Source: a virus. Taken from it: DNA of 23,312 bases. Position 1 is the stretch's first letter; the number at the start of each line of letters is the position of its first letter. The stretch spans positions 1-23,312 of the IMG/VR virus record IMGVR_UViG_3300035698_004241; one strand, 5' to 3'. Positions 1,253-14,971 of the stretch are shown in pieces. Under the pieces are notes generated by a model. That model worked only from the letters and a program-made list of their open reading frames with translations, was not told the origin of the DNA and did no database searches. Made by a program: the position numbers and the translations under genes.

Positions 1253-1257
1253 AATCA

Positions 1258-1471: not shown

Positions 1472-1473
1472 AA

Positions 1474-1504
1474 TAAACTCCAATAAAGTAATATAACAAT
1501 TAAT
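1474..1504 (-). repeat. AT-rich leader repeat, copy B
   Basis: The minus strand reads ATTAATTGTTAT, a diverged AT stretch, then TTGGAGTTTATTATG. It is directly preceded by a short hairpin (TAACCG-CCTT-CGG-TTA with a two-base bulge, about 1502-1517). The order hairpin, AT core, Shine-Dalgarno, ATG is the same as at copies A and C. Confidence 0.55.
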
Positions 1505-1525
1505 CCCGAAGGCGGTTAGTGTTAG

Positions 1526-1861
1526 TTAAAAGTTTTGAATTATAATTCCACCATCAAATTCAATAACCTGAGTATTATTACGCAGATAATCTAAGCAATC
1601 TTCTTCTTGATCATGTTCGTCAACATCGTCGCAGGGTGCGAAGTCATAACCAGCGTCATTTATGCAGTCAACAGCTGATTCATATTCGGTATACTCGCAA
1701 CATAGAGCGATAATATCAAGCTCAATTTCACAATCACAATCATTTTCAAGCTCTTCAAGGTAATCAAACAACGCCCTTTTGCCTTCATAACTGAACTGAT
1801 CCTGGCGGTCATGTGAATGGAATCTATCGGTAAAATCGCAAAAGCTTACTTGTTCTTTCAT
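1526..1861 (-). CDS. conserved acidic phage hypothetical protein
   Basis: A 111-residue acidic protein, MKEQVSFCDF..., that resembles a widespread small phage/plasmid hypothetical family. Shared features recalled from that family are an N-terminal FxDxFxxxxRxxQFSYEG segment, a middle EIELDIIALCCEYTEY, and a C-terminus FDGGIIIQNF; all three are present here. No function has been established for it that I know of. Many Asp/Glu residues give a strongly negative surface, so DNA mimicry or binding to a basic host protein is conceivable but unproven. The start is the ATG at 1861-1859, preceded by AAGGG. The first half of the spacer upstream folds into a three-way junction (1900-1940). Confidence 0.75.
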   Translation of the reverse strand: MKEQVSFCDFTDRFHSHDRQDQFSYEGKRALFDYLEELENDCDCEIELDIIALCCEYTEYESAVDCINDAGYDFAPCDDVDEHDQEEDCLDYLRNNTQVIEFDGGIIIQNF

Positions 1862-1864
1862 AAT

Positions 1865-1893
1865 TAAAACCCTTAAAATAAATAACAATTAAC
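1865..1893 (-). repeat. AT-rich leader repeat, copy C
   Basis: The minus strand reads GTTAATTGTTAT-TTATTTTA and then AAGGGTTTTAATTATG. It is the best match to copy A and differs mainly in the Shine-Dalgarno region. It lies immediately downstream of the three-way junction fold at 1900-1940. Confidence 0.6.
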
Positions 1894-1899
1894 ATTAAA

Positions 1900-1940
1900 C
1901 CCACTGCCGGTAACGATCCGGCTAAACGCTGTTTGGTGGG
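1900..1940 (-). other. predicted three-way-junction RNA element
   Basis: Three perfect stems nest exactly: P1 CCCAC (1900-1904) with GTGGG (1936-1940); P2 GCCGG (1906-1910) with CCGGC (1918-1922), loop TAACGAT; P3 AAAC (1924-1927) with GTTT (1931-1934), loop GCT. Only single unpaired bases (1905, 1923, 1935) join the stems. The fold starts two bases after the stop of the upstream gene and ends 39 bases before the next ATG. There is no U-run. It could be a stability or processing element, or a ligand- or protein-binding leader. Confidence 0.5.
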
Positions 1941-1942
1941 CG

Positions 1943-2275
1943 TTAGGCAAGCTGTAATTTACCGCAAACTTGCATTATCTGGTTGAATGTAGCCTTATCA
2001 GTATCAGACTTACATGCTTCATCATCAATGCACCAGAGAGCATAATAAGGCCCGTCTTTATCAGACTGCCGGCTATACCAAAGAATATTATCGTCTAATA
2101 CGTCACCCATGTAAGACTTAACCTGTGAGCTATACTTACCCTTATCTTGGCGTATTTTATGAGCATTGACCCAAGCTAATAAGCCTGTGCTAATAAGTGA
2201 GCCCTTACCAGTGGATACAAACAAAGACTCTAATTCGATATTCTTTACAGTGGTGTTTAGTGTTGCTAGTTTCAT
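1943..2275 (-). CDS. first gene of the leftward operon, unknown function
   Basis: A 110-residue protein starting MKLATLNTTV. It has a mixed alpha/beta composition and a C-terminal region with scattered cysteines (ALWCIDDEACK, QVCGKL). I recognise no family. The start is the ATG at 2275-2273, preceded by AAGGA at good spacing. A longer frame upstream runs through the promoter and is rejected. It is the promoter-proximal gene, with an mRNA leader of about 35 bases, so it should be among the earliest and most strongly expressed products of this operon. Such a position often holds host-takeover or anti-defence genes, but nothing in the sequence itself shows that. Confidence 0.7.
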   Translation of the reverse strand: MKLATLNTTVKNIELESLFVSTGKGSLISTGLLAWVNAHKIRQDKGKYSSQVKSYMGDVLDDNILWYSRQSDKDGPYYALWCIDDEACKSDTDKATFNQIMQVCGKLQLA

Positions 2276-2317
2276 GGTTAAAATCCTTAAAAAATGATTA
2301 TTGTTTGTGTTACTGTT

Positions 2318-2347
2318 ATAATATACACCCCATCGGCACAAAGTCAA
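2318..2347 (-). promoter_or_regulatory. sigma70-type promoter for the leftward operon
   Basis: The minus strand has TTGACT (2347-2342), an 18-base spacer, and TATTAT (2323-2318). A TATATT with a 16-base spacer overlaps it. The match to both consensus boxes is strong, and the first ATG lies about 43 bases downstream. A TAAAGTTTG (2357-2349) sits one base upstream of the -35 box; the same nonamer forms both arms of the dyad at the promoter before the portal gene. Confidence 0.7.
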
Positions 2348-2540
2348 GCAAACTTTAGATTTTAATTTGCGTACTGAAAAGATTTATCCAGCTCTTGAAT
2401 TAAATCGGGGAATACAGGCTAGTATTAAGGATTACAAGTCAAGCCATTATTTCCAGCAAGCCACATAGACAGACTCAGTACGAGGCGCACAGAGGCCAAA
2501 CAGCCCTGACAACCGACAACCAGCCGGATAATACGCAAAC

Positions 2541-2580
2541 AGCCACACAAGCCACAGCCACACAAGCCACAGCCACAGCC
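2541..2580. repeat. 15-bp tandem repeat, about 2.7 copies
   Basis: The unit AGCCACACAAGCCAC occurs at 2541-2555 and identically at 2556-2570, followed by a partial AGCCACAGCC (2571-2580). It sits in the A/C-rich block of the control region. It could be an iteron array or simple replication slippage. Confidence 0.75.
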
Positions 2581-2761
2581 CGACACAACAACGCACGCAG
2601 ACAGTCAACGTCTCACACACACGACACACAACCCCACAGTTGACGCACCAGCTTGCGGACTTGCCGTACCCGTACTGGTATGCGATAAGGCTACACCACA
2701 ACCAATACGCATATAGCACCATGCACAACACGCACACCACACAAGACACAAGTACACCACA

Positions 2762-2807
2762 ACACGTGGTAACTACGGGACACATCACAACACACGTGGT
2801 AATTACG
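2762..2807. repeat. pair of ACACGTGGTAAYTACG repeats, 30-bp period
   Basis: ACACGTGGTAACTACG lies at 2762-2777 and ACACGTGGTAATTACG at 2792-2807, exactly 30 bases apart, about three helical turns. Each contains the palindrome CACGTG. The second also forms the dyad CACGT-n7-ACGTG (2793-2809). This is the layout of a protein-binding site (operator or initiator); no specific regulator is identified. Confidence 0.6.
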
Positions 2808-2869
2808 TGGGTAACTCGATCGCGTGTCCCGTTTCGCCAGGTGTCCAAGCAGTCCAAGATTCAAGTCTG

Positions 2870-2895
2870 AATTCGTAGACAATAGGCTACGAATT
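2870..2895. repeat. 9-bp perfect stem-loop
   Basis: AATTCGTAG (2870-2878) pairs with CTACGAATT (2887-2895) around an eight-base loop. There is no T-run on either side, so it is not an intrinsic terminator. Its right arm plus two loop bases, GGCTACGAA, recurs in the loop of the terminator at 7901-7942. Confidence 0.6.
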
Positions 2896-3102
2896 GCTAG
2901 TGTGAACGCATTAGCACGCCTAAAACAGGCCCTCAGACCATAAAAAAACGGGTTTTTATGAGAGGATCGCGGGTATTGTCAGGATTCGAACCACACCCCC
3001 CCCCTTTTTTATTTTGGAGTCCCTAGTTACCCTGTGAAACACCTTTCCCCTTTTCCTATTCCCGACTTATATTATAACAATCAGTTTGAAACGGATTGTC
3101 TT

Positions 3103-3131
3103 TTTTCTAGTCTTCTTCCAGTATATATAAT
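3103..3131 (+). promoter_or_regulatory. weak candidate rightward promoter
   Basis: A perfect TATAAT at 3126-3131 lies in AT-rich DNA, but the base window 17 upstream (TTTTCT, 3103-3108) is a poor -35. Other -10-like elements are TATATTATAACA at 3068-3079 (identical to the -10 of the leftward promoter) and TATAAA at 3208-3213. One of them probably starts the rightward transcript, and I cannot decide which. Confidence 0.3.
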
Positions 3132-3326
3132 ACATATGGTTTCTTTTGCGTTATAGGATATTTGGACATTAGTAATTGTTTAGTCTTTAGTTAACTTTCG
3201 TAGTTGTTATAAAAGGACTTTACTTTTGGATTTAGGTTGGATTTAATTTGCAGGTTAGTCGAAAAGATGTTATTGTTTTACATATCACAAGTGGCATTAT
3301 TGAAAAGTTAATATATAAGGATAATC

Positions 3327-4331
3327 ATGGCAAATAAATGTCCAGACGATGAATGCGTACGCCTCAAGAAGAGAATTGATATTCAACTCCGAACCATAGA
3401 TCGGCAAAGCGAGAAAATCGCAACGACTAATTCTGAGCTGGCAAGGATTACGGAATTCAACAAAGATCAGGTTGGCATTATTACGAAACTTGTATGTGCT
3501 AACGAAAAGGGCAACGAAGCCTACCAGCGTATATTCGACGAGAAGGTCGAACGCTGCATGTATATTGCCGAGCTTGAAGCGAAGATTGAACGCCTATCGT
3601 CCAGAGGTATTGAGGATATGCAGGACACAATAGCAACGCTTGAAGCCGAGAACGCCAACCTCCGCAAGTCCATCGCCGCTTACGAGCCATTGGATAGGCT
3701 TATGAAGGAGCGGGATGAGTTGAAAGCTCAAGAATCAGAAGGCATGGAAGCTACATTAAGCCAAATGTTATCTAAAGAACAGGCAGAGAGATGGGGTTTA
3801 GACGAACACGGACATAAAAGAAATACCCAACAAATATTTATGAGAGCGTGTCTAGCCATTGACGACCTTGAAACTAAGTCAGCAGCAGACCTCAAACAGT
3901 ACCTTGATATTGTTGACAGAAATGCCGAGCTTGAAGCGAAGTTGCTTGCCGAGTATAAGTGGGTTAGCGTTGAGGAAGATGGCAGCAACCTTCCGTCCGA
4001 TCCCAACGAAGAAGTTTTCTGGAGAGAACCATCTGGTCACATAGAAAAATATAACTCAGAAATGTTTGTTAAACGTGAGGTTACTCATTACATGCGAATA
4101 CCTCCCATCCACCTGCCAGAAGCAAAGCCAGAGATGAAGAATGATAAGCCACTGTACGGTGCTTTTGAGTCTCAAATCAAGCCAGCCGACGACAAGAAGG
4201 TGTGCGAATGGAAGAGTAGTAGTTATAATCATACTACATCATGTGGCATTTCATGTCCTCGCAACCTAGAAGAAGATTTTTTTACATACATATGCCCCTA
4301 CTGCGGGCTGCCGATCAAGGAGGTGGAGTGA
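3327..4331 (+). CDS. coiled-coil protein with DUF551-like and zinc-ribbon segments
   Basis: A 334-residue protein in three parts. Residues 10-150 and 175-210 are heptad-rich coiled coil (AELEAKIERL, IATLEAENANLRKS, AELEAKLLAEY). Residues 210-262 match the DUF551 pattern: a YKWVSVEEDGSNLP start, then EVFW, and a VTHYMRIPPIHLP end. Residues 293-333 form a Cys-rich tail with C293, C306, C310 and a CPYCG knuckle (C323, C326). DUF551 proteins are common in phage early regions and have no known function. The start has AAGGA six bases upstream and nothing longer is possible. An 18-base sequence is exactly repeated (3567-3584 and 3924-3941), so the coil has probably grown by internal duplication. The stop overlaps the next ATG (TGATG). 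Confidence 0.75.
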   Translation: MANKCPDDECVRLKKRIDIQLRTIDRQSEKIATTNSELARITEFNKDQVGIITKLVCANEKGNEAYQRIFDEKVERCMYIAELEAKIERLSSRGIEDMQDTIATLEAENANLRKSIAAYEPLDRLMKERDELKAQESEGMEATLSQMLSKEQAERWGLDEHGHKRNTQQIFMRACLAIDDLETKSAADLKQYLDIVDRNAELEAKLLAEYKWVSVEEDGSNLPSDPNEEVFWREPSGHIEKYNSEMFVKREVTHYMRIPPIHLPEAKPEMKNDKPLYGAFESQIKPADDKKVCEWKSSSYNHTTSCGISCPRNLEEDFFTYICPYCGLPIKEVE

Positions 4332-4555
4332 TGACCTGCCCATTAGACAAAGACTGCGTATTTGCGAACCAACAGTCTGAGTGCGACCGTGTCCAGCTAT
4401 GCTGTAATGAGAAGCTGGCTGTCAAGGACGCTGAGATTGCCGCCTTGAAGCTTGAGAACGCTGAGTATTTACAGCACATGCACGACATGCAGCGTGAATG
4501 GCTTGATACTATCAAACGACTTCGCAAGAAACTTGGAGAGCTTGATAATGACTGA
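4331..4555 (+). CDS. small Cys/coiled-coil protein
   Basis: A 74-residue protein, MTCPLDKDCVFANQ.... The N-terminal 26 residues hold five cysteines (C3, C9, C18, C24, C25); the rest is an amphipathic helix or coiled coil (LAVKDAEIAALKLENAEYL, TIKRLRKKLGEL). The ATG at 4331 overlaps the stop of the previous gene by one base and follows AAGGAGG with a seven-base spacer, so I prefer it to the longer upstream frame. The Cys plus coil layout echoes the first gene of this operon, and a paralogous or fragment relation is possible. It overlaps the next gene by eight bases. Function unknown. Confidence 0.7.
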   Translation: MTCPLDKDCVFANQQSECDRVQLCCNEKLAVKDAEIAALKLENAEYLQHMHDMQREWLDTIKRLRKKLGELDND

Positions 4556-5222
4556 ACCGATAAAAAAACTAACCAGGTTCACAGAGCAAGAACTGAAACA
4601 GCGTAAGATTGGTGACTTCATTGACCCGGAGGGCATGTACGAAAAGTCCAGCCAGTTCAAAACCAAAAAAGAGACTTATGCAGCCGAGGGCGTACTGAAG
4701 TCTTATACATCGCTCTACAAGAGTTTTTGTGTGCTTCTGATTAAGGCAGACATACGTGCTACTGATGCTCCGGATAGGTATGCTTCGGCAAAATGTGCCC
4801 AGCTGATGATCGACGCATATTTATTGCACAGGAGTCGCGGTCAGGACGCTGAAATTCCGAACCAGGTTCACCTTTACAAAGTCAATAAGGAAAGCGAAGC
4901 CGAGGAATCAGGTATCGAACTGTACGATGCTGAACTTTTTGAGGAAGGCGGCGGGGTGAGCGAGAACGAAATGATTCGGTGGGTCAATAAGAATATGCGT
5001 ATCGCTGACATTGAACCAGTAGACGCGCCGTGTTCAGACGCCTATGGGATGTTGTTGCATTACCGCAAGACAGAGCAAAGGCAGGAGAAGTTCTACGACA
5101 CAATGGTTCCGAAACTCCTTTCTAAGGAAGACGCGAAAAAAACAAACAAACTTGAGGACCCCGGCAAAGATACAATTGATTTAATCAAGCGGTTACAAAA
5201 AGCATTACCGGAAAGCGAGTAA
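4548..5222 (+). CDS. candidate terminase small subunit
   Basis: A 224-residue protein beginning MTEPIKKLTRFTEQELKQR. It is largely helical and charged, with a C-terminal helix (DTIDLIKRLQKALPE). It lies a few small genes before the large terminase, where the small subunit that recognises packaging sites normally sits, and its length and helical character fit. I see no clear helix-turn-helix, so the call rests mainly on position. The region QMIDAYLLHRSR-like (residues 85-100) and the acidic middle (ELYDAELFEEGGG) are not diagnostic. The ATG at 4548 overlaps the end of the upstream gene. The longer frame upstream lies inside that gene and is rejected. It may instead be an unrelated packaging accessory protein. 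Confidence 0.45.
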   Translation: MTEPIKKLTRFTEQELKQRKIGDFIDPEGMYEKSSQFKTKKETYAAEGVLKSYTSLYKSFCVLLIKADIRATDAPDRYASAKCAQLMIDAYLLHRSRGQDAEIPNQVHLYKVNKESEAEESGIELYDAELFEEGGGVSENEMIRWVNKNMRIADIEPVDAPCSDAYGMLLHYRKTEQRQEKFYDTMVPKLLSKEDAKKTNKLEDPGKDTIDLIKRLQKALPESE

Positions 5223-5225
5223 AAA

Positions 5226-5465
5226 ATGATACTAACAGTTTCTGCAATAATTGGAATGTTCCTTGCTTATCTTTTTGGCTGGCTCTTAGGTGCATGGTTT
5301 AATTACTGGCCTTTATTTAGGCCCAAACAGCGAAGATGTAAAGATTGCTCACATAATAAATGGCTTAGGTCTTGCTTTGCAAAACAATATAGAGCGAAAA
5401 ACGGTGTTATTAAACCATGTAGCGTATACCGCCGCAAGTGGTGGAAATTCTGGAGGCCGAAATAA
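5226..5465 (+). CDS. small membrane protein with C4 motif and Trp-rich basic tail
   Basis: A 79-residue protein. Residues 2-31 are a hydrophobic segment rich in Leu, Phe and Trp that should span the membrane. Next come a CKDC-x8-C-x14-C arrangement (C38, C41, C50, C65) and a cationic, tryptophan-rich end, RRKWWKFWRPK. The tail resembles membrane-active peptides, so a role in lysis or membrane disturbance is conceivable. A membrane-anchored zinc knuckle is the other reading. It starts three bases after the previous stop, with no strong Shine-Dalgarno (only an A-run), which suggests translational coupling. The next gene begins directly at its stop. I do not recognise a family. Confidence 0.65.
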   Translation: MILTVSAIIGMFLAYLFGWLLGAWFNYWPLFRPKQRRCKDCSHNKWLRSCFAKQYRAKNGVIKPCSVYRRKWWKFWRPK

Positions 5466-5642
5466 ATGAAAACAATACTTGCATTTTTACTAGCGATTAC
5501 AGTAATAATAATCCTTGCGTTTGGTGGCTGGAAGCTGGAACGCTGGGCTAACTGGAAGTTAAGCTATGGCGGAAAAGTTGACGCTCAGATTACGCAACTT
5601 AAAAAGCGTATTGAAGTACTTGAGAAAGCGAGTAATAAGTGA
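5466..5642 (+). CDS. 58-aa membrane-anchored coiled-coil protein
   Basis: A 58-residue frame, MKTILAFLLAITVIIILAFG, then a basic/aromatic hinge (KLERWANWKL) and a short coiled coil (QITQLKKRIEVLEK). The N-terminus is a single membrane span or signal anchor. The ATG directly follows the TAA of the preceding gene. Its TGA overlaps the next ATG by one base, so the frame fits the operon perfectly. The architecture (N-terminal anchor plus coil) recalls inner-membrane spanins, but it is far shorter than Rz-type proteins. A holin-like or other accessory role is equally possible. No lysozyme or endolysin gene is visible nearby to support a lysis cassette. Confidence 0.65.
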   Translation: MKTILAFLLAITVIIILAFGGWKLERWANWKLSYGGKVDAQITQLKKRIEVLEKASNK

Positions 5643-5848
5643 TGGCAATACCAAAATCAAAATCCTATAAAAACTTGCCTCCTGAAACGATAGAGAATCA
5701 AGTTAATAGAAAACTTTACTATCGAGCCTTTTCTATGGATTTGGCATTTCTTTATAGCCATCCTGGATTTAACTGGCAAAATCACATAGACAGAACTTTC
5801 TACGATTGCCTTGAATCAACAAAGCAAAGATTTATGAGGGTAACCTAA
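5642..5848 (+). CDS. small protein upstream of terL
   Basis: A 68-residue protein, MAIPKSKSYKNLPPETIENQ..., with no transmembrane segment or recognisable domain. A helix with aromatic residues (KLYYRAFSMDLAFLY) fills the middle. The ATG at 5642 overlaps the previous stop (TGATG); a GTG three bases upstream is less likely. Its end abuts the terL start exactly (TAA then ATG). The GAGGG inside its last codons is the ribosome binding site for terL. It may be a terminase accessory protein, by position only. Confidence 0.6.
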   Translation: MAIPKSKSYKNLPPETIENQVNRKLYYRAFSMDLAFLYSHPGFNWQNHIDRTFYDCLESTKQRFMRVT

Positions 5849-7765
5849 ATGCTACCAGTCCAAACGCTTTTAGACATCAAGCAAGAATATGAAGAAAAAG
5901 CTGCTGAGATACAGTCTGGCGACAGATACCCGTTTTATTCATTTTGTTGCAAAAACGTACCTGGATTCAAGACACTGCGCGGGAACCTTGCTTTCCGGTT
6001 GAAGATTCTGGAGCTAGCTGCGAACGATATTGATTTTAAGAGCGACATCTATGCCATGTGCAGTAGGGATATGTTGTTTTATATCAATACGTTTTGCTTT
6101 ACATATGATCCCAGATTACTGCCATTGCCCACAGAAGTTCCATTCATAACTTATAATTTCCAAGATGTAGCTCTGGACGATATAAAATTAGCGATTGACG
6201 CTCCGCATGATGAATTGACGGAGAAATCGCGTGGTGTTGGGGCTAGCTGGATGTACTTAACTGTTTTCGGATGGTTCTTCCATTTCAGAGATTACGTTAC
6301 TTTCAGACTCTTGAGTGAGAACGAACGTAAAGTTGATGATTCAATTGACCCAGACGCTTTGTTCTGGAAGCTAAGATTTTGGCTGAAACATTTAGTTGCA
6401 TGGCTAAAGCCAGACTGTAGAGTGATCCAGTTAAATATTCTTAATAATGATAATTTCTCTACGCTTACAGGTTGTGCTACAACTTCAGATGCGGCTCGTG
6501 GTGGAAGGTGTACCGCAATGCTTCCAGATGAGTTTGCAGCGGTTCCAGATGGGCATGGAATGCTAGAGTCAACTCAGCACGTAACAAAATGCAGGCTGTT
6601 CAATTCAACTCACAAGGGTTCAGCTACGGCGTTTTATAAACTGAGCATAGGCTCAATTAAAAAATTGATAATTCATTGGTCTGTGCATCCTGTTTTTAAT
6701 CTGGGGTTGTATTACAGTGTTGGGAATGATGTAGTTCACCTTGATAATTATCACGGCGAAGTAACAGTTACCAGAGAGAAATATAACTATCCAAGCGAAT
6801 ATCCATATCGTAAAGACGGCAAACTCAGAAGCCCTTGGTATGATAATGAGTGCGATAGAGCCGTTCACCCGATGGCAATCGCACAGGAATTGGATATGGA
6901 TCCGTTCAGTTCCGACTCGCAGTATTTTGACGCAGAAATAATCGACCATATCGAAAAGACTAATGTGTGCAATCCTTACGATGAAGGCGAAGTTGAGTAT
7001 GACGAAGATACGCTTGACCCGATGGGTTTTGTGCATGGTGTAAATGGTTCGTTAAAGTTGTGGATTTATCCAGACTTTATGAATAAGATCGACAGGAATC
7101 TTGAGATAGGAGCCGGAGCAGACATTTCCGCTGGAACCGGAGCGAGTAATTCAACTATGACGTTTGTTAATTTGAGAACTGGCGAAAAGCTGGCAGAATA
7201 CGCGAACCCTTGGGTTCGACCTGAGCAGTTTGCGAAAATAGCCATTGCCTTATGTCGGTTCTTTAACGATGCGTTTTTAGTATTCGATGCAAGCGGTCCA
7301 ACAGGCAGAGTATTTTCAGACGAACTGATGCGGGTTGGCTACAGAAATATCTATTACCGCAGGGACGAAGTTGGCCTTAAAAAGAAGGTATCCGACAAGC
7401 CGGGCGTTTTCCTTAACACAAAAGAAAAAGCCTCTGTATTGGGTTTGGTGCGAAGATGTTTGAAAGATGGAACATTTATCCAGAGAAGTCACGACGCTAA
7501 CCAGGAGTACCTTGAGTACATTCAAAAGAGTAGTGAGGAGATCACCCATAGTTCTGCCGCGAACAGCGTAGACCCGTCCGGAGCCGGTCAGTCACATGGA
7601 GATCGCGTGATTAGCGATGCTTTGGCGATGAAGTGCTGTCAGTTCCTTGGCAAGTTGGTTAAAAAAGGCGGTAATCAGGATAATCGTAGCGACCCGCCGC
7701 CCCGGAGTTTTCTGGGCATGAAGCGGGCGGAAAAACTTAAAGAACGTAAATCGAAAGAGTGGTAA
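5849..7765 (+). CDS. terL: terminase large subunit (packaging ATPase/nuclease)
   Basis: A 638-residue protein, a typical size for TerL. The ATPase half shows a variant Walker A, EKSRGVGAS (residues 125-133), a Walker B of hydrophobic residues ending LPDEF (D227, E228), and a coupling segment FNSTHKGS (251-258). The C-terminal half has RNase H-fold nuclease acidic residues: D425 in GAGADISAG, D480 in FLVFDASG and D585/D590 in HGDRVISDAL. It pumps DNA into the procapsid through the portal and cuts it. It is the best-supported gene of the window and fixes the identity of the whole element as a tailed phage. It starts directly after the preceding stop. A promoter, small RNA and terminator follow it before the portal gene. 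Confidence 0.95.
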   Translation: MLPVQTLLDIKQEYEEKAAEIQSGDRYPFYSFCCKNVPGFKTLRGNLAFRLKILELAANDIDFKSDIYAMCSRDMLFYINTFCFTYDPRLLPLPTEVPFITYNFQDVALDDIKLAIDAPHDELTEKSRGVGASWMYLTVFGWFFHFRDYVTFRLLSENERKVDDSIDPDALFWKLRFWLKHLVAWLKPDCRVIQLNILNNDNFSTLTGCATTSDAARGGRCTAMLPDEFAAVPDGHGMLESTQHVTKCRLFNSTHKGSATAFYKLSIGSIKKLIIHWSVHPVFNLGLYYSVGNDVVHLDNYHGEVTVTREKYNYPSEYPYRKDGKLRSPWYDNECDRAVHPMAIAQELDMDPFSSDSQYFDAEIIDHIEKTNVCNPYDEGEVEYDEDTLDPMGFVHGVNGSLKLWIYPDFMNKIDRNLEIGAGADISAGTGASNSTMTFVNLRTGEKLAEYANPWVRPEQFAKIAIALCRFFNDAFLVFDASGPTGRVFSDELMRVGYRNIYYRRDEVGLKKKVSDKPGVFLNTKEKASVLGLVRRCLKDGTFIQRSHDANQEYLEYIQKSSEEITHSSAANSVDPSGAGQSHGDRVISDALAMKCCQFLGKLVKKGGNQDNRSDPPPRSFLGMKRAEKLKERKSKEW

Positions 7766-7778
7766 ATAAAAGAAATAA

Positions 7779-7821
7779 ACAAACTTTAAATTTTTATCTT
7801 GCGTTCTCCGATAAAGTTTGT
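7779..7821. promoter_or_regulatory. 10-bp inverted repeat overlapping the promoter (operator-like)
   Basis: ACAAACTTTA (7779-7788) and TAAAGTTTGT (7812-7821) are perfect inverted repeats separated by 23 bases. The right arm fills the -10/-35 spacer and ends on the first base of the -10 region. The -35 lies between the arms. There is no T-run, so it is not a terminator for terL. The core TAAAGTTTG also abuts the -35 of the leftward promoter, as expected of a shared regulator site. Confidence 0.55.
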
Positions 7822-7828
7822 ATATACT
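7799..7828 (+). promoter_or_regulatory. candidate promoter between terL and portal
   Basis: TTGCGT (7799-7804), an 18-base spacer and TATACT (7823-7828); TATATA at 7821-7826 gives a 16-base alternative. The surrounding DNA is AT-rich and intergenic. Predicted start of transcription is about 7835. The element overlaps the inverted repeat at 7779-7821. Confidence 0.5.
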
Positions 7829-7834
7829 AAATAG

Positions 7835-7942
7835 AGTAATAGACAAGTTAATACGGGTATGACTGATTCCGGCCAGTTGAAGTCATAGCAAAATAATCAA
7901 AGACGCCTCGTAGGGCTACGAACCTACAAGGCGTCTTTTTTT
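7835..7942 (+). ncRNA. candidate phage small RNA or attenuated leader
   Basis: The gap between a promoter (7799-7828) and a strong intrinsic terminator (7901-7942) has no ORF with a ribosome binding site. It contains a perfect 7-bp stem TATGACT (7858-7864) with AGTCATA (7881-7887) around a 16-base loop. An alternative stem ACTG (7862-7865) with CAGT (7874-7877) competes with it. The product would be about 108 nt with a 5' single-stranded part, one stem-loop and the terminator hairpin, a classical small-RNA layout. If the terminator is leaky or controlled, the same element would act as an attenuator for the head genes. Confidence 0.45.
7901..7942 (+). terminator. strong intrinsic terminator before the portal gene
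   Basis: AGACGCCT (7901-7908) and GTAGG (7910-7914) pair with CCTAC (7923-7927) and AGGCGTCT (7929-7936), with one C-A mismatch and an eight-base loop GCTACGAA. A run of seven T follows (7936-7942). This is the only canonical intrinsic terminator I see in the window. Confidence 0.9.
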
Positions 7943-7965
7943 ATGCCCGCGTATAAAGGAAACTT

Positions 7966-9747
7966 ATGGCTTTTGACGTAAATAGCAAAGCAGACGTGGC
8001 AGACCTGTCACAAGCAGTAGGCTATTCTCGCGATGTTGGCGAAGTCTACCGCGTCAATAGGCTTACCCTGATGAAGCAGGCAGTCGGGCATAATTACTCT
8101 GATAACGGTGCGGCTGACAAAGTTCCGATGAATTTGCTTGAGCTAGCCACAAATATCTATTTACAACGTCTTGTAGCCCAAAACCCTCAAGTTTCGATCA
8201 ACACGTTTTATCCACAATTAAAAGAGATTGTTACACGATTTGAGATGGCTGGTAACAATCTGATCGAGGACATTGAACTTGGGGAAACTCTTTCAACAGT
8301 TGTATATGCGGCTTTATTCTCTAAGGGTATTCTCAAGATAGGGCTTAACCGGTCAACGGTCGAGGTCGGAGGGATTACCCACGACAGCGGACAGGCGTTT
8401 GCTGATGCTGTATCGCTGGATGACTGGGTTGAGGACATGACCGTTTCGGAGAATGAGAACGGCCAATTTGAAGGAAATTACTGGTATCCGACGATTGACG
8501 AAGCAATGGAATTGTTCCCTGAAGCAGAAGAAAGTGACTTTTCCTTAAAAAGAGAGCAAACTGGTGAAAAGACCAAAGACCATGATATTCAAGAGGGTGA
8601 TTCTAATAAGTCAACTCGCGTAGAATTCCGACCGGTCGTAAAGATGCTGGATTTATACCTTAAAAAGCAGAATTTAATCCTGCAATGCACCTATTCTGGT
8701 GACGACAAAGACCCAATCGGAACAGTTTTGAATAGCTTTGAATGGGAAGGCCCTGAAAACGGGCCATATCACAAGCTGGGATTTGGCGTTGTCGAAGGCT
8801 GTACGATGCCATCGGCGCCAGCACAGCACTGGATTGATATTCACACGCTGACAAATAGGCTTTTCCGTAAACTCGGACGGCAGGCTGATCGGGAAAAGAC
8901 TGTTGTTGGTGTTAAACAAGGTGGAGATCGAGACGGAAACATTTTAGTTGATGCCAGTGACGGCCAAACGGTCAAGATGGACGATCCGAATAATATAGGC
9001 GAAATTCATACTGGCGGTATAAACCAGTCAACATTGGCATTCGTACTGATGCTCAAAGACATTTTCAGCTACATGGGCGGAAACCTAGACAATCTTGGTG
9101 GATTGGGCCCACAGTCGGAAACGCTTGGCCAGGATCAACTTCTCTCGGCTTCTGCGTCCATGCGGATCCAGAAGATGCAAAAAGACGTAACTGTTTTCAC
9201 CACGAAAGTCTTGAAGGACTTAATGTGGTACTTGTGGTATGACCCAAATCCAAAACAGAAGGATGTTATCAAGACGGCTCCTGGCTTTGAGAGTGTGACA
9301 ATTGCTGTCCCCTTCAACCCAGAAGACCGCGAAGGCGACTATCTTCAATACAATATCATTTTAGAGCCGTATTCGATGCAACACCAGTCGCCTGAGAGCA
9401 AGTTGCAGGGGATTCGGACTGTATTGGCAGAAATGATCCAGCCGTTACTTCCGATGATGGAACAGCAGGGTGTGACGCTTGACATTGAAGGGTTGTTCAA
9501 AACAGTAGGTAAGTTGAGTAATATTCCAGAGTTGAGCAACTTTATAAAGTTTTCAAGTCCGAATCTTGAACAGCCGGTCGGTTCGTCATCAGAGGCCAGA
9601 CAAGCACCAAATACAACCCGTACAAATATACGAAAGAATATTCCAGGCGCAACCCAACAGGGTAAATCAGCCGTTTTACAGCAGGCTTTGCTTGGTAAAA
9701 AGCCACAGCAGTCGGAAGTAGCATCACTAACTAGAGCATCAGCATAG
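7966..9747 (+). CDS. portal protein
   Basis: A 593-residue protein directly after terL and two small genes plus Gp49 before the scaffold/capsid pair, the standard portal position. The N-terminal part is helical with LLELATNIYLQRLVAQNP, as in the stem/wing of podovirus portals. A later helix-rich stretch (QDQLLSASASMRIQKMQKD, then FTTKVLKDLMWYLW) resembles the long portal helices. The C-terminal 60 residues are polar and low in order (SSEARQAPNTTRTN). It would form the dodecameric ring through which TerL packages DNA and to which the tail adaptor binds. AAAGGA precedes the ATG. It lies immediately downstream of the terminator, so its expression depends on readthrough or an unseen second start. 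Confidence 0.8.
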   Translation: MAFDVNSKADVADLSQAVGYSRDVGEVYRVNRLTLMKQAVGHNYSDNGAADKVPMNLLELATNIYLQRLVAQNPQVSINTFYPQLKEIVTRFEMAGNNLIEDIELGETLSTVVYAALFSKGILKIGLNRSTVEVGGITHDSGQAFADAVSLDDWVEDMTVSENENGQFEGNYWYPTIDEAMELFPEAEESDFSLKREQTGEKTKDHDIQEGDSNKSTRVEFRPVVKMLDLYLKKQNLILQCTYSGDDKDPIGTVLNSFEWEGPENGPYHKLGFGVVEGCTMPSAPAQHWIDIHTLTNRLFRKLGRQADREKTVVGVKQGGDRDGNILVDASDGQTVKMDDPNNIGEIHTGGINQSTLAFVLMLKDIFSYMGGNLDNLGGLGPQSETLGQDQLLSASASMRIQKMQKDVTVFTTKVLKDLMWYLWYDPNPKQKDVIKTAPGFESVTIAVPFNPEDREGDYLQYNIILEPYSMQHQSPESKLQGIRTVLAEMIQPLLPMMEQQGVTLDIEGLFKTVGKLSNIPELSNFIKFSSPNLEQPVGSSSEARQAPNTTRTNIRKNIPGATQQGKSAVLQQALLGKKPQQSEVASLTRASA

Positions 9748-9755
9748 GAGACAAT

Positions 9756-9959
9756 ATGGCCGCGGCAAACGATAAGTTGATTTGGTTGAAAGTTTTGATC
9801 GGTTTCATATTTACGCTTATGCTTTTGATGGTTACGGCAGGAGCTACACAGTTGGACAAAAAAGTAAATAAAGATGTTTTTGAATTGTATGAGGTGTATC
9901 AAAACAAGCAATTCATAGACATAAAGGATTCATTAACCCGAATCGAGGATAAGTTATAA
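9756..9959 (+). CDS. small single-span membrane protein
   Basis: A 67-residue protein. Residues 9-30 (IWLKVLIGFIFTLMLLMVTAG) form one clear membrane span, and the rest is charged and coiled-coil-like, ending DIKDSLTRIEDKL. The Shine-Dalgarno TAGGAGA overlaps the portal stop. The stop overlaps the next ATG by one base (TAATG). Architecture and size match the 58-aa protein before terL. Possible roles are a holin or spanin-like lysis component, or a membrane-associated assembly factor. None can be chosen from sequence alone. Confidence 0.65.
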   Translation: MAAANDKLIWLKVLIGFIFTLMLLMVTAGATQLDKKVNKDVFELYEVYQNKQFIDIKDSLTRIEDKL

Positions 9960-10306
9960 TGGCAGAGTACAGTTTTAAATGCCCAGAATGTGAGAATGAG
10001 CAAACTGTTACGAGAGTGATGGCGGACTACGACAAGCCGTTGAAGTGCGAGAAGTGCGGTACAAAGATGGCCAGGTTGTTGAGCGTTAGTGGCAAAAGCA
10101 GATGCGGCAACGGTTATCCGATGGCGTCGTATGCCGTTGGCGTTGGAGCAAGCGAAGTTCCGGCTGCGATGGAAGTTGACAAAAAAGGCGGCGTTCCAAC
10201 GAGATATACTAAAGACGGAGACCCGGAATTCACAAGCAGAGGTCATAGGAAGAAGTATTTGAAATTACACGGTTTTCACGATCGTAACAGTTATAATGGT
10301 GATTAA
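9959..10306 (+). CDS. FmdB-like zinc-ribbon protein
   Basis: A 115-residue protein. The first 42 residues match the FmdB/CxxC-CxxC zinc-ribbon pattern: aromatic start MAEYSFKC, CPEC (C8, C11), 18 residues, CEKCGTK (C30, C33), then a hydrophobic MARLLS. The C-terminal part is polar and basic, with HRKKYLKLHGFHDR. Zinc ribbons of this type beside portal genes are frequent in phages, and their role is not settled; they may regulate late genes or bind DNA during packaging. It is coupled to the upstream membrane gene and followed by a repeated ribosome-binding cassette (10305-10325). Confidence 0.75.
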   Translation: MAEYSFKCPECENEQTVTRVMADYDKPLKCEKCGTKMARLLSVSGKSRCGNGYPMASYAVGVGASEVPAAMEVDKKGGVPTRYTKDGDPEFTSRGHRKKYLKLHGFHDRNSYNGD

Positions 10307-10325
10307 AACCTAAACCGAAGGGAAG
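10305..10325 (+). promoter_or_regulatory. repeated ribosome-binding cassette, copy 1
   Basis: AAAACCTAAACCGAAGGGAAG precedes the Gp49-family gene. An identical copy lies at 10796-10816 before the scaffold gene. A related ACCGAAAGGCAGTAAAATG precedes two genes at 15033 and 15265. GAAGGGAAG is the Shine-Dalgarno; the conserved bases upstream go beyond what ribosome binding needs. Confidence 0.6.
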
Positions 10326-10328
10326 CAC

Positions 10329-10778
10329 ATGTATTACATTGGCGTAAAAAGAATCGAAGCAGAACCGATGACACTTGGTATGTATAATGATCACAAGGGC
10401 TGGACTATTCCAGAAGATGAAGACCCAGCTAAAGAAGGCTACTTGGTCACGTATTCAGACACGTACAGTTCATGGAGTCCGAAAGAAGTGTTCGATGACG
10501 CTTATCTTGCTATTGGGGGAGATGGCACAAAGATTACTCAGGACACAGTAAACGAGTTTATGGGAATCCTTGTGGCTTCACAGATCGACGACAAGACTAC
10601 TCTTGTGACTGCCGAGACTATTACCGGATTCAGGCAGCACGAAGTTTCCAGTTGCGTTGACCCGAAGAACTATGACGCTGAAATAGGCAAGAATATCTGC
10701 GAGAAGCGAATACAGGGCACAGTTTGGAAGTGCCTTGGATTTGTATTGCAGTGGGCAAATTACGGCCTAAAGAAATAA
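10329..10778 (+). CDS. N4 Gp49 / Sf6 gene 66 family protein
   Basis: A 149-residue two-part protein. Residues 1-60 hold a phage motif often fused to this family: KRIEAEPMT, YNDHKGW, EDEDPAKEGYLVTY and SWSPKEVFDDAY. Residues 67-149 match the N4 Gp49/Sf6 gp66 family, with the hallmark SCVDPKNYDAEIG (108-120) followed by a helical end containing VWKCLGFVL. The function of this family is unknown to me; it usually sits in early or accessory regions. Here it lies between portal and scaffold, within the head operon. The start has GAAGGGAAG six bases upstream, in a cassette duplicated before the scaffold gene, so the two genes may share an origin of their initiation regions. Confidence 0.8.
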   Translation: MYYIGVKRIEAEPMTLGMYNDHKGWTIPEDEDPAKEGYLVTYSDTYSSWSPKEVFDDAYLAIGGDGTKITQDTVNEFMGILVASQIDDKTTLVTAETITGFRQHEVSSCVDPKNYDAEIGKNICEKRIQGTVWKCLGFVLQWANYGLKK

Positions 10779-10795
10779 ACCAAAAACCTAACCCA

Positions 10796-10816
10796 AAAAC
10801 CTAAACCGAAGGGAAG
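10796..10816 (+). promoter_or_regulatory. repeated ribosome-binding cassette, copy 2
   Basis: Identical over 21 bases to the sequence at 10305-10325, and preceded by an extra partial unit (CAAAAACCTAACCC). It lies directly before the scaffold start at 10820. The likely cause is duplication of the whole initiation region. Confidence 0.6.
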
Positions 10817-10819
10817 AAA

Positions 10820-11788
10820 ATGGCAGACGAAAAGAAAACAGAAGAAGAATCAACGGAAGAAACCAAAGATGCTTTGAATTCCGCTATAGAAGCTGGCGAC
10901 GAAAAAGAAGCTGAAGATAAAGAGGAAAAACACCTCGAAGCTATGAAAGATTTTGACAGTTTAATCGACAGCGACGACGACGATTCCGCTGACGAAAAAA
11001 CAGACGATGATGGCGAAGAAAAAGACGATCCCGCCAAGGAAGAAGTCGAAGAACCTGCTAAAAAAGCAGAAGAAGCACCAGAACCAGGCAGTATAGACGC
11101 AGCGGCGGATGCTCTTGAAAAAGAGATTGAAACTGAAGCGGCTAAAAGTGACGAGCAGAAAGCTACTGAAAAGGCCGAAGCGGATGCGAAAGCAGCCAAG
11201 GAAGCCGAAGACGCTAAGAAGTCAGAAGAAGAACCGTATGATTGCGGACTGAATACTGATCCCGACGCTGAAGGCGAAGCCTACGAGCCTGCATTGGTCG
11301 AAGCATTGAACAAGCAGGGACAGGCGGTTCAGGATCGTGCAAAAGACGCAGAAGCGAAGAACACAGCCCTTGAGAGCAGACTTGACAGGCAGGAAGCGGA
11401 AAGAACCGCCGACTGGCTCGACGGGAAGTTCAACTCATTGGACGAAAACTTCACGGAAGCGGTTGGCTTTGGCGAGTTCCAGGACTTTGATTCCGGTTCA
11501 GTAGAACAGGAAAACAGGTTGGCTATTTCTAAGCGAATGCAGGTTACTGCAAAGGCTTGCGTGAGAGACGGCAAACCAATCCCGTCACGGAACAAACTGT
11601 TTGATATGGCTGTAAAGCGAATACTAACTAAAGAAACTAACAAGCCGGAAACTGATAAGGAGACCGCCAATAATCTTGCGAAAAGATCAAAGCAGGCTAT
11701 CGGACGGGCTTCTAAAAAGGGAACGGCATTATCGAAGGCGAAGTCAAACTTGCAAAAGCAAAAAGAGTTTGACGCTCTTCTTGACTAA
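10820..11788 (+). CDS. capsid scaffolding protein
   Basis: A 322-residue, very acidic protein between portal and capsid. The first 140 residues are almost entirely Glu, Asp, Lys and Ala (low complexity). The middle is coiled-coil-like (VQDRAKDAEAKNTALESRLD). The C-terminal 60 residues turn basic and helical (NNLAKRSKQAIGRASKKG, SKAKSNLQKQKEFDALLD). Position, acidity and a basic C-terminal helix are typical of podovirus scaffolds, in which the C-terminus binds the coat protein and the protein leaves the procapsid before packaging. No protease motif is seen. A reverse-strand open frame of 132 codons, rich in Ser, is only the shadow of the Asp/Glu-rich codons. Confidence 0.8.
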   Translation: MADEKKTEEESTEETKDALNSAIEAGDEKEAEDKEEKHLEAMKDFDSLIDSDDDDSADEKTDDDGEEKDDPAKEEVEEPAKKAEEAPEPGSIDAAADALEKEIETEAAKSDEQKATEKAEADAKAAKEAEDAKKSEEEPYDCGLNTDPDAEGEAYEPALVEALNKQGQAVQDRAKDAEAKNTALESRLDRQEAERTADWLDGKFNSLDENFTEAVGFGEFQDFDSGSVEQENRLAISKRMQVTAKACVRDGKPIPSRNKLFDMAVKRILTKETNKPETDKETANNLAKRSKQAIGRASKKGTALSKAKSNLQKQKEFDALLD

Positions 11789-11808
11789 CCTTCAGAAAGG
11801 ACATTAAG

Positions 11809-12885
11809 ATGTCCGTACACACAGAAGATATTTTAGATATGCTGGAAACGACTCGTGATTCTCACGACGACATGACCTTCATTGACATATCATCAGACTT
11901 GCAGGAATACACAGTTACTCCGTGGCTTTTAACTCAGGCTGGCGGATTGAAGGTTGAGTCCGGTGGTGGAACTGGTCACGAACAGTCGCTGATGTATAAC
12001 AACGGCGGCTACTCTAAGTGGGTTGACGAGTTTGCCGAGAGAACTGGCTCAATCATTGACCACCTGAAGAAGATGAAAGTCAATTATAAACTATTGCTAG
12101 ATGGTCTTCAATACACTTATGGCGAAATAGTTGACAACCGTGGCAAGGAGCGGATCAATAAGATCATCAAGCCTCGAACACGGTCAATGTGGTTGCGTGT
12201 TGCTAAGACGATGGAGCGTGATTTCTACGCCGAACCTGACGCTACGGATGACGAGACTCCGTGGGGCTTGAAGTATTGGATCGTCAAGAATGCTGAAACT
12301 GGATTCAACGGTGGGTATCCGACTGGTTTCACGAAAATCGGCAATATCGACTTGTCAGTAGTCACGAACTTTAAGAACTATACTGACGTTTATACCACTG
12401 TATCGAAGGACGATCTCATCAAGAAGATGAAGAAAGCTCATCTTCAGACTGGTTTTTATGCTCCTCGCACAGACGCAGGCGTTACAGGCGATTCAATGCC
12501 CAATAAGCGTATGTATCTTGTAAACGAAGTTACGATTGAAGGTGTCGAAGACATCGGCGAAGCTCAGAACGAGAACCTTGGTAACGACATGGCTCCAAAG
12601 ACCGCAGGTACAGGCAAGATGGGTCTGAGGATGGACGCTGGCGACAACATCACGTTCAAAAGGAATCCGTTCGTCTATGCTCGCAAACTTGATACTGATA
12701 CGACTGACCCGGTCTACGGCATAGATATGAGTACCATGCAGGCTCTGACTAAGAAGGGCGACAACATGAAGCTGAGTGAATACTACCAGCATCCGACTCA
12801 GAGGCGTTTGTTCCTTGCGGACTTGTTCCACAGGCATCAGACAATTTGCTTCAACCGTCGTAACAACTTTGTCATCAACAAATAA
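11809..12885 (+). CDS. major capsid protein
   Basis: A 358-residue protein directly after the scaffold, of normal length for an HK97-fold coat. Features consistent with the fold include a long acidic/aromatic N-terminal segment, a helix with FAERTGSIIDHLKKMK (a spine-helix candidate near residues 75-95), and the NRGKERINKIIKPRTRSM helix. A C-terminal SEYYQHPTQRRLFL is followed by RRNNFVINK. I assign it by position and general shape rather than by a diagnostic motif. AAGGA precedes the ATG. Two strong hairpins follow the stop, which may protect this most abundant message. Confidence 0.8.
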   Translation: MSVHTEDILDMLETTRDSHDDMTFIDISSDLQEYTVTPWLLTQAGGLKVESGGGTGHEQSLMYNNGGYSKWVDEFAERTGSIIDHLKKMKVNYKLLLDGLQYTYGEIVDNRGKERINKIIKPRTRSMWLRVAKTMERDFYAEPDATDDETPWGLKYWIVKNAETGFNGGYPTGFTKIGNIDLSVVTNFKNYTDVYTTVSKDDLIKKMKKAHLQTGFYAPRTDAGVTGDSMPNKRMYLVNEVTIEGVEDIGEAQNENLGNDMAPKTAGTGKMGLRMDAGDNITFKRNPFVYARKLDTDTTDPVYGIDMSTMQALTKKGDNMKLSEYYQHPTQRRLFLADLFHRHQTICFNRRNNFVINK

Positions 12886-12890
12886 TCAAC

Positions 12891-12935
12891 GCCGTCGGGT
12901 GTCCCCGGCGGCATAATATTCGGGTTGTCCCCGAA
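12891..12935 (+). other. tandem hairpins after the capsid gene, no U-tract
   Basis: Hairpin 1: GCCGTCGGG (12891-12899) with CCCGGCGGC (12904-12912), nine pairs with one G-U, loop TGTC. Hairpin 2: TTCGGG (12919-12924) with CCCGAA (12930-12935), loop TTGTC. Neither is followed by T-runs, so full termination is unlikely. A 3'-end stabiliser, RNase processing site or partial attenuator between the capsid and decoration genes is more plausible. Confidence 0.6.
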
Positions 12936-12949
12936 AGATTGGAGTTAAA

Positions 12950-14125
12950 ATGAGTAACGTACGAAATTTAGTGGGGTATGGCCAAAGGCGCAAGGAAAAC
13001 CTTGCCACTTTTGTTTATACCGGAACATTAGCGTTGAAGCGTGGTGACGGCATGTGCTTTGCACTTAATACCACCGACACTGGAACTGGCGAACTTGCCA
13101 CTGACCCTTGGGGTCGTAGAGGTCAGGTAGAAATTGCTGTCCCATCGGCATCAAACGCAAACAGGTTTGCAGGTGTGCTGACTCGGAGTTACGAGGCTGA
13201 CGCAGACGGCAAACTTAGGGTAGTCGAGCTTGCTATGCCGGGTGGTTGTGCGATGATTTCGCAGCGGGTTATTTCAACCGTTGGTTTGGGCCGCGTTACC
13301 TGTATCGTTGACAGCGTTGCTGGCGGTGGAATTTCAGGAAAATTTGCCCATGGCGGTTTGCCTGGCAGAGGTTCTGCTGTGCCGCTGGAAACGTTGGCCG
13401 CTGCTACGAGTGGCGACCTCGCCCTGACGCACACCACAACTTTGATGACAGCAAATGCCGCCTATTCCTCTTCGACCGGCTTAACCACCATCACAATGAC
13501 TGGTGCTGGGACGGCGATGGGTTATCTTACTGCTGCGGTTGATGCAAGCCAGTACGAGTGTACGGTAGTTGGCGGTGGTGCACTGGCTGATGGAGTCGTT
13601 AGAGCAACGCAGGGTGTCTATCCTGTAGTTCAAGCGACTGGAGCCAATACCTTTACGGTTACTGGCAACACTGGCGATGCGGTATGTACGGTCTTCCTAA
13701 CGAAGAAAAACCTGCTCAAGCTAGCTTATCTAGAAGATGGTCGCGAGTCTGGATTGTCAGATTACGTGACCCCTCTCAGTGGTGCTGCTGCTCAGTTTGT
13801 CTTGAACCAGGGTGGCTGTACTTTCATTTGTGGTGGCTCTGAAACAGCACAGCCTTGTACAGTCAATACACTTGCTGATCCGGTAGTAATTGGTGGGCTT
13901 GGCGATGGTGCAAGAAAAGCATTCTGCATGCTGGGAACACAAACAACAGGTACATATTTGGTAACAGTTACATCGGGCGAAAAATTCGATGGTGAGACAG
14001 ATATTAGTACGTTATCGTACCTGACAGCAGGCCATCATTCAATGCTGGAGTTCCATGGGGATTATGGTATTGACACTTCAGGTCGTTGGGCACTTATTGA
14101 AAGTCAAGGTGCTACAATAACCTAA
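12950..14125 (+). CDS. virion structural protein, likely capsid decoration
   Basis: A 391-residue protein immediately downstream of the capsid gene. It is Gly-, Thr- and Ala-rich and beta-strand-rich, with a Gly-rich middle (VDSVAGGGISGKFAHG) and a repeat-like insert at residues 144-250 (TTTLMTANAAY, TITMTGAGTAMGYLTAAV) resembling Ig/beta modules on phage surfaces. The end KLAYLEDGRESGLSDYVTPL and TGTYLVTVTSG follows a layout I associate with capsid-associated proteins of uncultured podophages. It is likely exposed on the head. TTGGAG precedes the start. A 13-bp hairpin follows the stop. Confidence 0.6.
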   Translation: MSNVRNLVGYGQRRKENLATFVYTGTLALKRGDGMCFALNTTDTGTGELATDPWGRRGQVEIAVPSASNANRFAGVLTRSYEADADGKLRVVELAMPGGCAMISQRVISTVGLGRVTCIVDSVAGGGISGKFAHGGLPGRGSAVPLETLAAATSGDLALTHTTTLMTANAAYSSSTGLTTITMTGAGTAMGYLTAAVDASQYECTVVGGGALADGVVRATQGVYPVVQATGANTFTVTGNTGDAVCTVFLTKKNLLKLAYLEDGRESGLSDYVTPLSGAAAQFVLNQGGCTFICGGSETAQPCTVNTLADPVVIGGLGDGARKAFCMLGTQTTGTYLVTVTSGEKFDGETDISTLSYLTAGHHSMLEFHGDYGIDTSGRWALIESQGATIT

Positions 14126-14145
14126 TAACAATATCGGTTTGGGTT

Positions 14146-14218
14146 GATGTAGGGCGTGGCTTCGTGGTCACGCCTTGCATCGTATTATAAATAATCTTGT
14201 TGACTCGCAATAGAGTCA
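14146..14218 (+). other. two hairpins between decoration-type genes
   Basis: The first stem is GATGTAGGGCGTG (14146-14158) with CACGCCTTGCATC (14169-14181), 13 continuous pairs including two G-U, loop of ten. The second is TGACTC (14201-14206) with GAGTCA (14213-14218), loop GCAATA. No T-run follows either. The second lies 15 bases before the ATG at 14234 and could modulate ribosome access. Confidence 0.6.
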
Positions 14219-14233
14219 GAAAGTGAGTATAAA

Positions 14234-14971
14234 ATGAGTAATGAAGCTGTAACTTACAGTCGAGGAAGAACGTATTATGTCGCTGGCGTTGGCATACTGT
14301 TCGACCACGGAACAACCGTCCCTACAGACGGAACATCAGACTATGCACCTGGTTGCATTTTTCAGGATACCGATGCTGCGGCTGATGCAAGTTTTTTAAT
14401 TAACCAGGGGACACTTGCTTCGTGCAACTTTGACGCGATTGATGTTGGTACGATTCTTGCTTCAAACGTGCCGATTCTTGACACTGCTGGGTGGTTTACA
14501 GCAACGAACACTGAGACTGTTCTGGCAGAGATTGGTGCACTTCTCAGGGTAGCAACAACAGCCGGCATAACTACTGGTGTCGTTTGTTGCAAGAAAATTG
14601 CGTCTGCACAACTTGAACTTTTGCTTGATACTAACGAAAACGACCTTTTCGCTGTCAATGAAGGGGATGTAATTCTCAAAGTTGAGTTAGTAATCCAGGC
14701 CGCTGCTGGTGCAACTTGTGCGGTAACTATCGGAACAGATGTTGACGTTGACGGAACTACGAAAGACCCTGATTCTCTACTGAAAGCTGGTGATGCAAAC
14801 GCAACCGGTATTCAGGCTTCAGATGATGTTGCCGGGACTTACTTAGGTGCAGACCTTGCATTCGGAAGTCTTACAGCCGACGACGATGGTTATGTAACCA
14901 TAACTTCCAGTGTGGATAAAAGTGCTTCAAGTTTTGTAGGTGAAGCATTGATGTATTACATTCCAGCATAG
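14234..14971 (+). CDS. capsid-associated protein (decoration or head fibre)
   Basis: A 245-residue beta-rich protein. The N-terminal part has VGILFDHGTTVPTDGTSDYA, PGCIFQDTDA, a Phe-Leu-Ile-Asn-Gln-Gly-Thr motif and SCNFDAI. I have seen this arrangement in capsid-neighbouring structural proteins of many phages, but the exact role is not known to me. The C-terminal part is acidic and Thr-rich (VDVDGTTKDPDSLL) and ends in EALMYYIPA. It lies second after the capsid gene, flanked by hairpins on both sides. Expected to be surface-exposed on the head. Confidence 0.6.
   Translation: MSNEAVTYSRGRTYYVAGVGILFDHGTTVPTDGTSDYAPGCIFQDTDAAADASFLINQGTLASCNFDAIDVGTILASNVPILDTAGWFTATNTETVLAEIGALLRVATTAGITTGVVCCKKIASAQLELLLDTNENDLFAVNEGDVILKVELVIQAAAGATCAVTIGTDVDVDGTTKDPDSLLKAGDANATGIQASDDVAGTYLGADLAFGSLTADDDGYVTITSSVDKSASSFVGEALMYYIPA

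Follow-up and report, generated by a model that had tools for sequence, protein, structure and literature searches.

A conserved three-way-junction RNA with a terminator-like stem upstream of late genes in phages linked to a planctomycete order

A conserved RNA, about 100 nt long and folding as a three-way junction of a helix P1, a hairpin P2 and a terminator stem P3, lies in the gap between terL and the next gene (7966–9747) of a 23.3 kb virus record and recurs upstream of structural genes in many other, unrelated phages and prophages. The conservation of the fold with compensatory changes places the element as a whole far beyond chance. It probably decides whether the late genes are transcribed. 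Our reading, held with slightly better than even confidence and based on sequence features, is that it acts in cis as a conditional intrinsic terminator, that is an attenuator or antitermination site of the late operon. Coordinates (Table 1) refer to the window, which is the whole stretch of 23,312 nt that was analysed.

The gap contains no plus strand ORF of at least 50 aa (7766–7965), as the earlier note on this DNA had held. The product of the gene 3' of the element was not recognised by Pfam nor, for the window member, by PHROGs. An AlphaFold2 model with 82 homologues as input reached a pLDDT of 79.7 and was used in place of one made from just 6 sequences (pLDDT 36). Its best Foldseek matches are the portals of phages SU10, Pan3, N4 and T7 (best E 1.9e-15), and on this predicted structure the gene is confirmed as a portal gene of podovirus-type fold. 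Elsewhere in the window, the stretch that separates the leftward from the rightward gene block, 2460–2860, is A+C-rich and G+T-poor with tandem repeats (ACAGCCACACAAGCC); a similar stretch is present near 2213–2535 of L001.

Table 1. Features of the element and its flanking genes in the window
Feature	Position	Strand	Basis
Large terminase subunit gene	5849..7765	+	phrog_5989, E 1.4e-7; relative L001 75% identical
Promoter-like site TTGCGT-18-TATACT, conserved spacer CCGATAAAG	7799..7828	+	Sequence, conservation in relatives
Linear 5' motif GACAAGTTAATA, 3' half of host rRNA-leader boxA slot	7842..7853	+	Copy counts
P1 5' strand CGGGU	7854..7858 (to 7860 in window)	+	Pairing and covariation
P2 hairpin, 7 bp stem in window, foot common with P1	7858..7887	+	Covariation
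P2 apical loop CGGCCA, self-complementary core GGCC	7870..7875	+	Palindrome count
J2/3 linker GCAAA, family consensus CGYAAG	7888..7892	+	Alignments
P3 foot AUAA, pairs with UUAU 7941–7944 across the U tract	7893..7896	+	Helix 3 covariation
P3 terminator stem-loop	7899..7938	+	-24.5 kcal/mol; double changes at 17/18 pairs (51 copies)
X-NN-X'1 inverted repeat TCGTAGGGCTACGA inside P3	7908..7921	+	Arm lengths
U7 tract	7936..7942	+	Longest U run 6–8 in 44/49 copies
P1 3' strand AUGCCCG, past the U tract	7943..7949	+	Alignments and covariation
Ribosome-binding site of portal gene, purine-rich AAAGG	7955..7959	+	Sequence, by eye
Portal protein gene	7966..9747	+	AlphaFold2 model, Foldseek matches

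The 109 nt window RNA has a folding energy of -33.2 kcal/mol (z -4.1 versus shuffles). All of the parts listed in the earlier note were found where it had placed them, including the stem-loop in which TATGACT (7858–7864) pairs with AGTCATA (7881–7887). The description was incomplete, since the third helix, P1, lies partly beyond the 3' end that had been given. P1 in the window pairs CGGGU (7854–7858) with GCCCG (7945–7949), and bases 7858–7860 are common to the foot of P2. The window P2 is among the weaker ones and has a large loop enclosing CGGCCA. At the foot of P3 the pairs across the family include AACAA/UUGUU, AAUAA/UUAUU and AGAAA/UUUCU.

Ten copies aligned with MAFFT without use of structure have compensatory changes in 26 of the 41 pairs, yet the junction was derived from these same ten sequences. 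They reach a covariation score of 0.384, compared with 0.196 for shuffles (0 out of 500) and 0.07–0.19 when the pairing partners are slid. In this unfitted alignment 98% of the P1 cells are paired and P2 has double changes in 11 of 12 pairs. Larger alignments, both fitted to the structure, have 92% of cells paired and 34 of 41 pairs changed on both sides (33 copies), and 91% and 39 of 41 (51 copies, two of these rows being minus strand partial matches). In the 51 fitted copies P1 is paired in 95% of cells, with double changes at all 5 of its pairs. The structure withstands the refuting condition set by the earlier note, a lack of stem conservation among close relatives. At one P1 position U.G, U-A and C-G pairs all occur, in the 33 and in the 51 copies, an exchange that fits selection on the plus strand RNA.

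A function at the DNA level or on the minus strand was rejected on the grounds of the conserved U.G pairs, which favour plus strand RNA; for the minus strand, in addition, most model matches are low-scoring and cover P3 only. A leader peptide of nine codons overlapping P2 (ATG ACT GAT ... TAG) was also ruled out, as its frame and stop are lost in L004 and L025 and other copies have no ATG. The RNA family is absent from Rfam: no family in Rfam 15 scored above its gathering threshold, the best match being 24.5 bits for the window and 22 bits for copy L038 (cut-off 90 in both cases). A literature search gave nothing relevant on planctomycete or phage RNA motifs or on kissing-loop antitermination.

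The P3 stem reads AAAGACGCCT-C-GTAGG / CCTAC-A-AGGCGTCTTT, with one C.A mismatch on the plus strand, and has the GC-rich stem and following U run of an intrinsic terminator. It is, as had been noted, the single strong site of this kind: the 10 other matches in 1–20000 have stems of 5–7 pairs, and the scan of 19900–23312 gave one match of 5 pairs. A GC-rich stem followed by a U tract is present in nearly all copies, the stem sequences differing completely. Conservation of the U tract behind stems of different sequence suggests that termination is selected. Because P1 covaries and its 3' strand lies past the U tract, transcripts that read through appear to be selected as well.

Within P3 there is a nested repeat, in which X can pair either with X'1 or with X'2 (7923–7927 in the window). 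The X-NN-X'1 arms are at least 5 long in 43 of 49 copies, with a mean of 5.6 against 2.1 when the loop letters are shuffled. Calculated energies for the window are -3.5 kcal/mol for X:X'1 alone, -15.7 for P3 with X:X'1 forced and -24.5 for the full stem, which is what a hairpin formed first and transiently should give. X:X'1 was rejected as a classical antiterminator, the lower P3 stem staying intact beside the U tract. L031 and L032 have, at about 2530–2680, two X-NN-X'1-X'2 terminator stems in tandem between terL and portal.

The promoter proposed 5' of the element is present where it was described (TTGCGT 7799–7804, an 18 nt spacer and TATACT 7823–7828) and its sequence is kept in relatives, although taken alone it does not rise above chance. 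A promoter scan gave 40 promoter-like sites against 32 expected, with this one under the scan cut-off. With the family promoter pattern, at up to 3 mismatches, it is the sole match in the window and 0 are expected. Most members found between terL and portal have a promoter-like site at a similar position. A spacer motif resembling CCGAWAWAG recurs in the -35/-10 interval of L001, L004, L007, L025, L028, L030, L097 and L116. A sigma-54 promoter was ruled out, there being no GG at -24. Several copies, for example L128, L250 and L208, start no more than about 15 nt after the upstream gene's stop codon. The promoter is therefore not an obligatory part of the element, and for copies with no space for an intervening promoter it may lie inside the upstream gene.

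Just 5' of P1, GACAASTRAATA is found at up to 2 mismatches in 28 of 49 copies, against 0.6 expected from shuffles. The same slot is filled by an exact boxA, GYTCTTT(T)GAAAA, in L218, L223 and L027 and by a near match in L226 and L034. In the window and in most copies GACAASTRAATA stands alone, without the GYTCTTT of the boxA core GYTCTTTGA. About half of the host rRNA leaders read from the order have a boxA of the form GYTCTTTGACAAGTKAACA or GYTCTTTGAAAAGTTAACA, and it is on this basis that the phage motif is equated with the 3' half of the host boxA slot. The P2 hairpin follows the motif at a nearly fixed distance. A boxA and a boxB hairpin in nascent RNA are a known assembly site for antitermination complexes (PMC7819879). 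Among 25 Pfam families listed for parts of three related phage genomes there was neither an RNA polymerase nor an antiterminator; the lack of a polymerase is consistent with use of the host polymerase and Nus factors. A match to the 3' half of the host rrn boxA (TTGAAAAGTTAATA) is also present at 3300–3313 of the window, just 5' of the first rightward ORF (3327). The pattern TTGAMAASTDAAYA has 5 matches in 293 kb of related loci, against about 0.05 expected at equal base frequency. Three of these coincide with copies of the element, known or weak, and one is on the minus strand of L253 at 2961, as TTTCTTTGACAAGTTAATAG.

The apical loop of P2 contains a 4 nt palindrome in 43 of 44 loops, the exception being GGCG in L028. 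At least 7 distinct palindromic cores occur (GGCC, UGCA, GAUC, AGCU, CGCG, GCGC and AAUU). Shuffling the loop letters is a weak test here, as it already gives 21.6 of 44 from the balanced composition, so what counts is how many different cores occur. By our own estimate, 7 of 8 cores being palindromic has a probability of about 1e-3 at a conservative 30% chance per loop. Pairing between the P2 and P3 loops of one molecule was rejected, no correlated change being seen when they were read side by side. A loop that is self-complementary in this way could pair with that of a second molecule, and a kissing dimer is the direct, though predicted, structural reading. It is conceivable, if rather unlikely, that the late-operon leader is an RNA switch that recognises a further copy of itself through this loop, with the terminated RNA or a second transcript kissing the nascent leader and setting the level of read-through. 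The palindromes differ among three copies of a single prophage (UGGCCA, UCGCGA and AGGCCU).

Relatives recovered with TerL and portal range from 82% to roughly 30% portal identity. As far as about 42% identity, the same arrangement is often seen in the whole terL-portal gap or in its last part, with terminator stems that nonetheless have no sequence in common. In most of the more distant relatives terL and portal nearly touch. In L004 an extra ORF separates terL from the element, which thus remains on the side of the portal gene. With the first model, weaker copies outside its training set were picked up in L034, L001, L007, L042, L031, L071, L092, L120 and L097, each of them 5' of the portal gene, and nearly all of its matches outside the training set in portal-relative loci fall in the terL-portal gap. 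A DNA pattern search gave more IMG/VR copies, and these do not precede a portal.

L102 comes from a Sedimentisphaerales MAG. In the GTDB order to which this MAG belongs, copies were found in 22 of 161 genomes (model R1, E<=0.01) or 23 of 161 (model R2, E<=0.001), the model E-values being rough. An even sample of the phylum Planctomycetota gave 8 of 392 genomes, three of them already known from the order, in a search less sensitive than that of the order because fewer candidates per genome were scored. Some of the weakest genome matches (e.g. L235–L237 and L240–L242) are probably plain terminators and were left out of the final alignment. One copy is present in the near-complete genome G120. 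The MAG contigs and the concentration of copies in one order suggest that the hosts belong to a single planctomycete order. Genes 3' of the copies include those for capsid proteins (Mu gpT-like in L250 and L251, phrog_1005 in L222, L226 and L248, Phage_capsid_4 in L217), scaffold (L220), head-tail adaptor (L249), GpA terminase (L248), lambda-family portal (L218, L227 and L239), tail tube (L205 and L206) and minor tail protein (L248). The prophage-like contig L248 (G137:C18) has three clear copies and one weak copy within 15 kb. Its clear copies each have a different P2 palindrome, and copies there stand before terminase, cement-like, capsid and tail genes. In L228, L230, L232, L233, L239 and L247, a subgroup with the P2 loop CUGAUCC, the element is separated from the portal-side genes by a tRNA-Met(CAT) gene.

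A strong terminator placed before head, portal or tail genes, and sometimes repeated in one late region, makes no sense unless it is conditional. The order of a boxA-like motif and then a hairpin, like that of a loading site for Nus-dependent antitermination, is a further reason for proposing a conditional terminator. We infer termination, its regulation, the factor, the folding order, antitermination and dimerisation from the sequence. RNA polymerase would arrive from the promoter-like site, or in other copies from upstream genes, and the window RNA would start a few bases before the boxA-like motif. After the boxA-like entry motif, the polymerase would transcribe the P2 hairpin, and the small X:X'1 hairpin could form first and then give way to the long P3 stem. 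Release of the polymerase at the U7 tract would be the default, leaving an RNA of about 108 nt. If host Nus factors or a putative phage factor had modified the polymerase at the boxA-like/P2 region, it would read through; the three-way junction would then be closed by P1 within the 5' UTR, allowing expression of the structural gene that follows. Several observations stand against this: most copies have the 3' half of boxA alone, the full P3 and X:X'1 both leave the lower stem at the U tract, and P1 pairs 3' of the terminator, where it has no obvious role in termination.

The lambda late leader (pR' - 6S RNA - tR') comprises a promoter, a short terminated leader RNA and a terminator with the late genes behind, a layout that the element resembles. 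In lambda, however, Q binds promoter DNA and needs no conserved RNA fold, while the element has such a fold and recurs inside operons. The phage HK022 put site, two stem-loops acting on later terminators, likewise folds in nascent phage RNA and controls termination; here the terminator is instead one arm of the fold. The lambda nut and rRNA boxA-boxB sites share the boxA-like linear motif followed by a hairpin, and a few copies of the element have an exact boxA. They differ in that most copies have no GYTCTTT, the third helix encloses the terminator, and the loop is palindromic rather than of boxB type. The HIV-1 dimer initiation site is similar in having a hairpin loop that varies yet stays a palindrome, but its context and stem are unrelated and the dimer of the element is predicted. 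Early pausing has been described at lambda late promoters (PMC4604602).

Of the two options raised in the earlier note, attenuation of late expression is the better supported, as different phages keep the element 5' of their head, portal, terminase or tail genes, nearly always with a terminator-like P3. A trans-acting small RNA of about 108 nt is improbable as the main function. The window family has its own promoter-like site and terminator and a stable fold, as such an RNA would, but L128, L250 and L208, starting at most about 15 nt past a stop codon, leave no space for a promoter in between, the place before late genes is conserved, and P1 needs bases past the terminator. In another reading, RNase III might cut P3, protecting the 5' end of the structural mRNA and splitting off that of the preceding gene. 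P3 has about 24 pairs, and the element is intergenic, can be repeated in one genome and precedes major structural genes; P1 forms only in read-through RNA, which fits with a role in the mRNA, and the long intergenic hairpins that are the RNase III sites of T7 are similarly repeated along the phage transcript. However, such processing needs no conserved U6–8 tract, boxA-like motif or self-complementary loop, and the U tract, P1 and boxA-like motif set the element apart from the T7 sites; we regard this as unlikely, though not as much so as a small RNA.

Control of translation, or of the mRNA through its 5' UTR, with a phage structural protein or something else as ligand, would suit the many copies within tens of bases of structural-gene start codons and the conservation of the loop and the J2/3 linker. 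It is slightly less probable again than a small RNA acting in trans, as the downstream genes are unrelated, the window ribosome-binding site is outside the fold, and one subgroup has a tRNA-Met gene between the element and the gene. A packaging RNA like the pRNA of phi29, forming part of the terminase-portal motor, would share a three-way junction of similar size, the terL-portal position and loops that change yet can pair between molecules. The element differs from pRNA in its built-in terminator, its other genomic contexts, with copies also upstream of tail and capsid genes, and its presence in up to four copies in one prophage rather than singly, which makes this reading very improbable. 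Least probable of all, to the point of being negligible, is an ordinary terminator with its surrounding structure arising by chance. A single strong stem and U tract could be explained in this way, but not the covariation in three helices, which no shuffle out of 500 reached and which slid controls fall far below.

Three testable predictions follow for this RNA family: termination at the U tract, dependence on Nus factors and loop-loop dimerisation. If the self-recognition switch were true, late-gene output would respond to the level of its own transcript, and having different palindromes would stop one switch from acting on another. Few phages, most of them infecting well-studied hosts, are known to control their late operons with structured RNAs. 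This RNA family is common to phages with unrelated capsids, portals and tails and is linked to one planctomycete order, which suggests a host-adapted transcription control module that is exchanged between phages.
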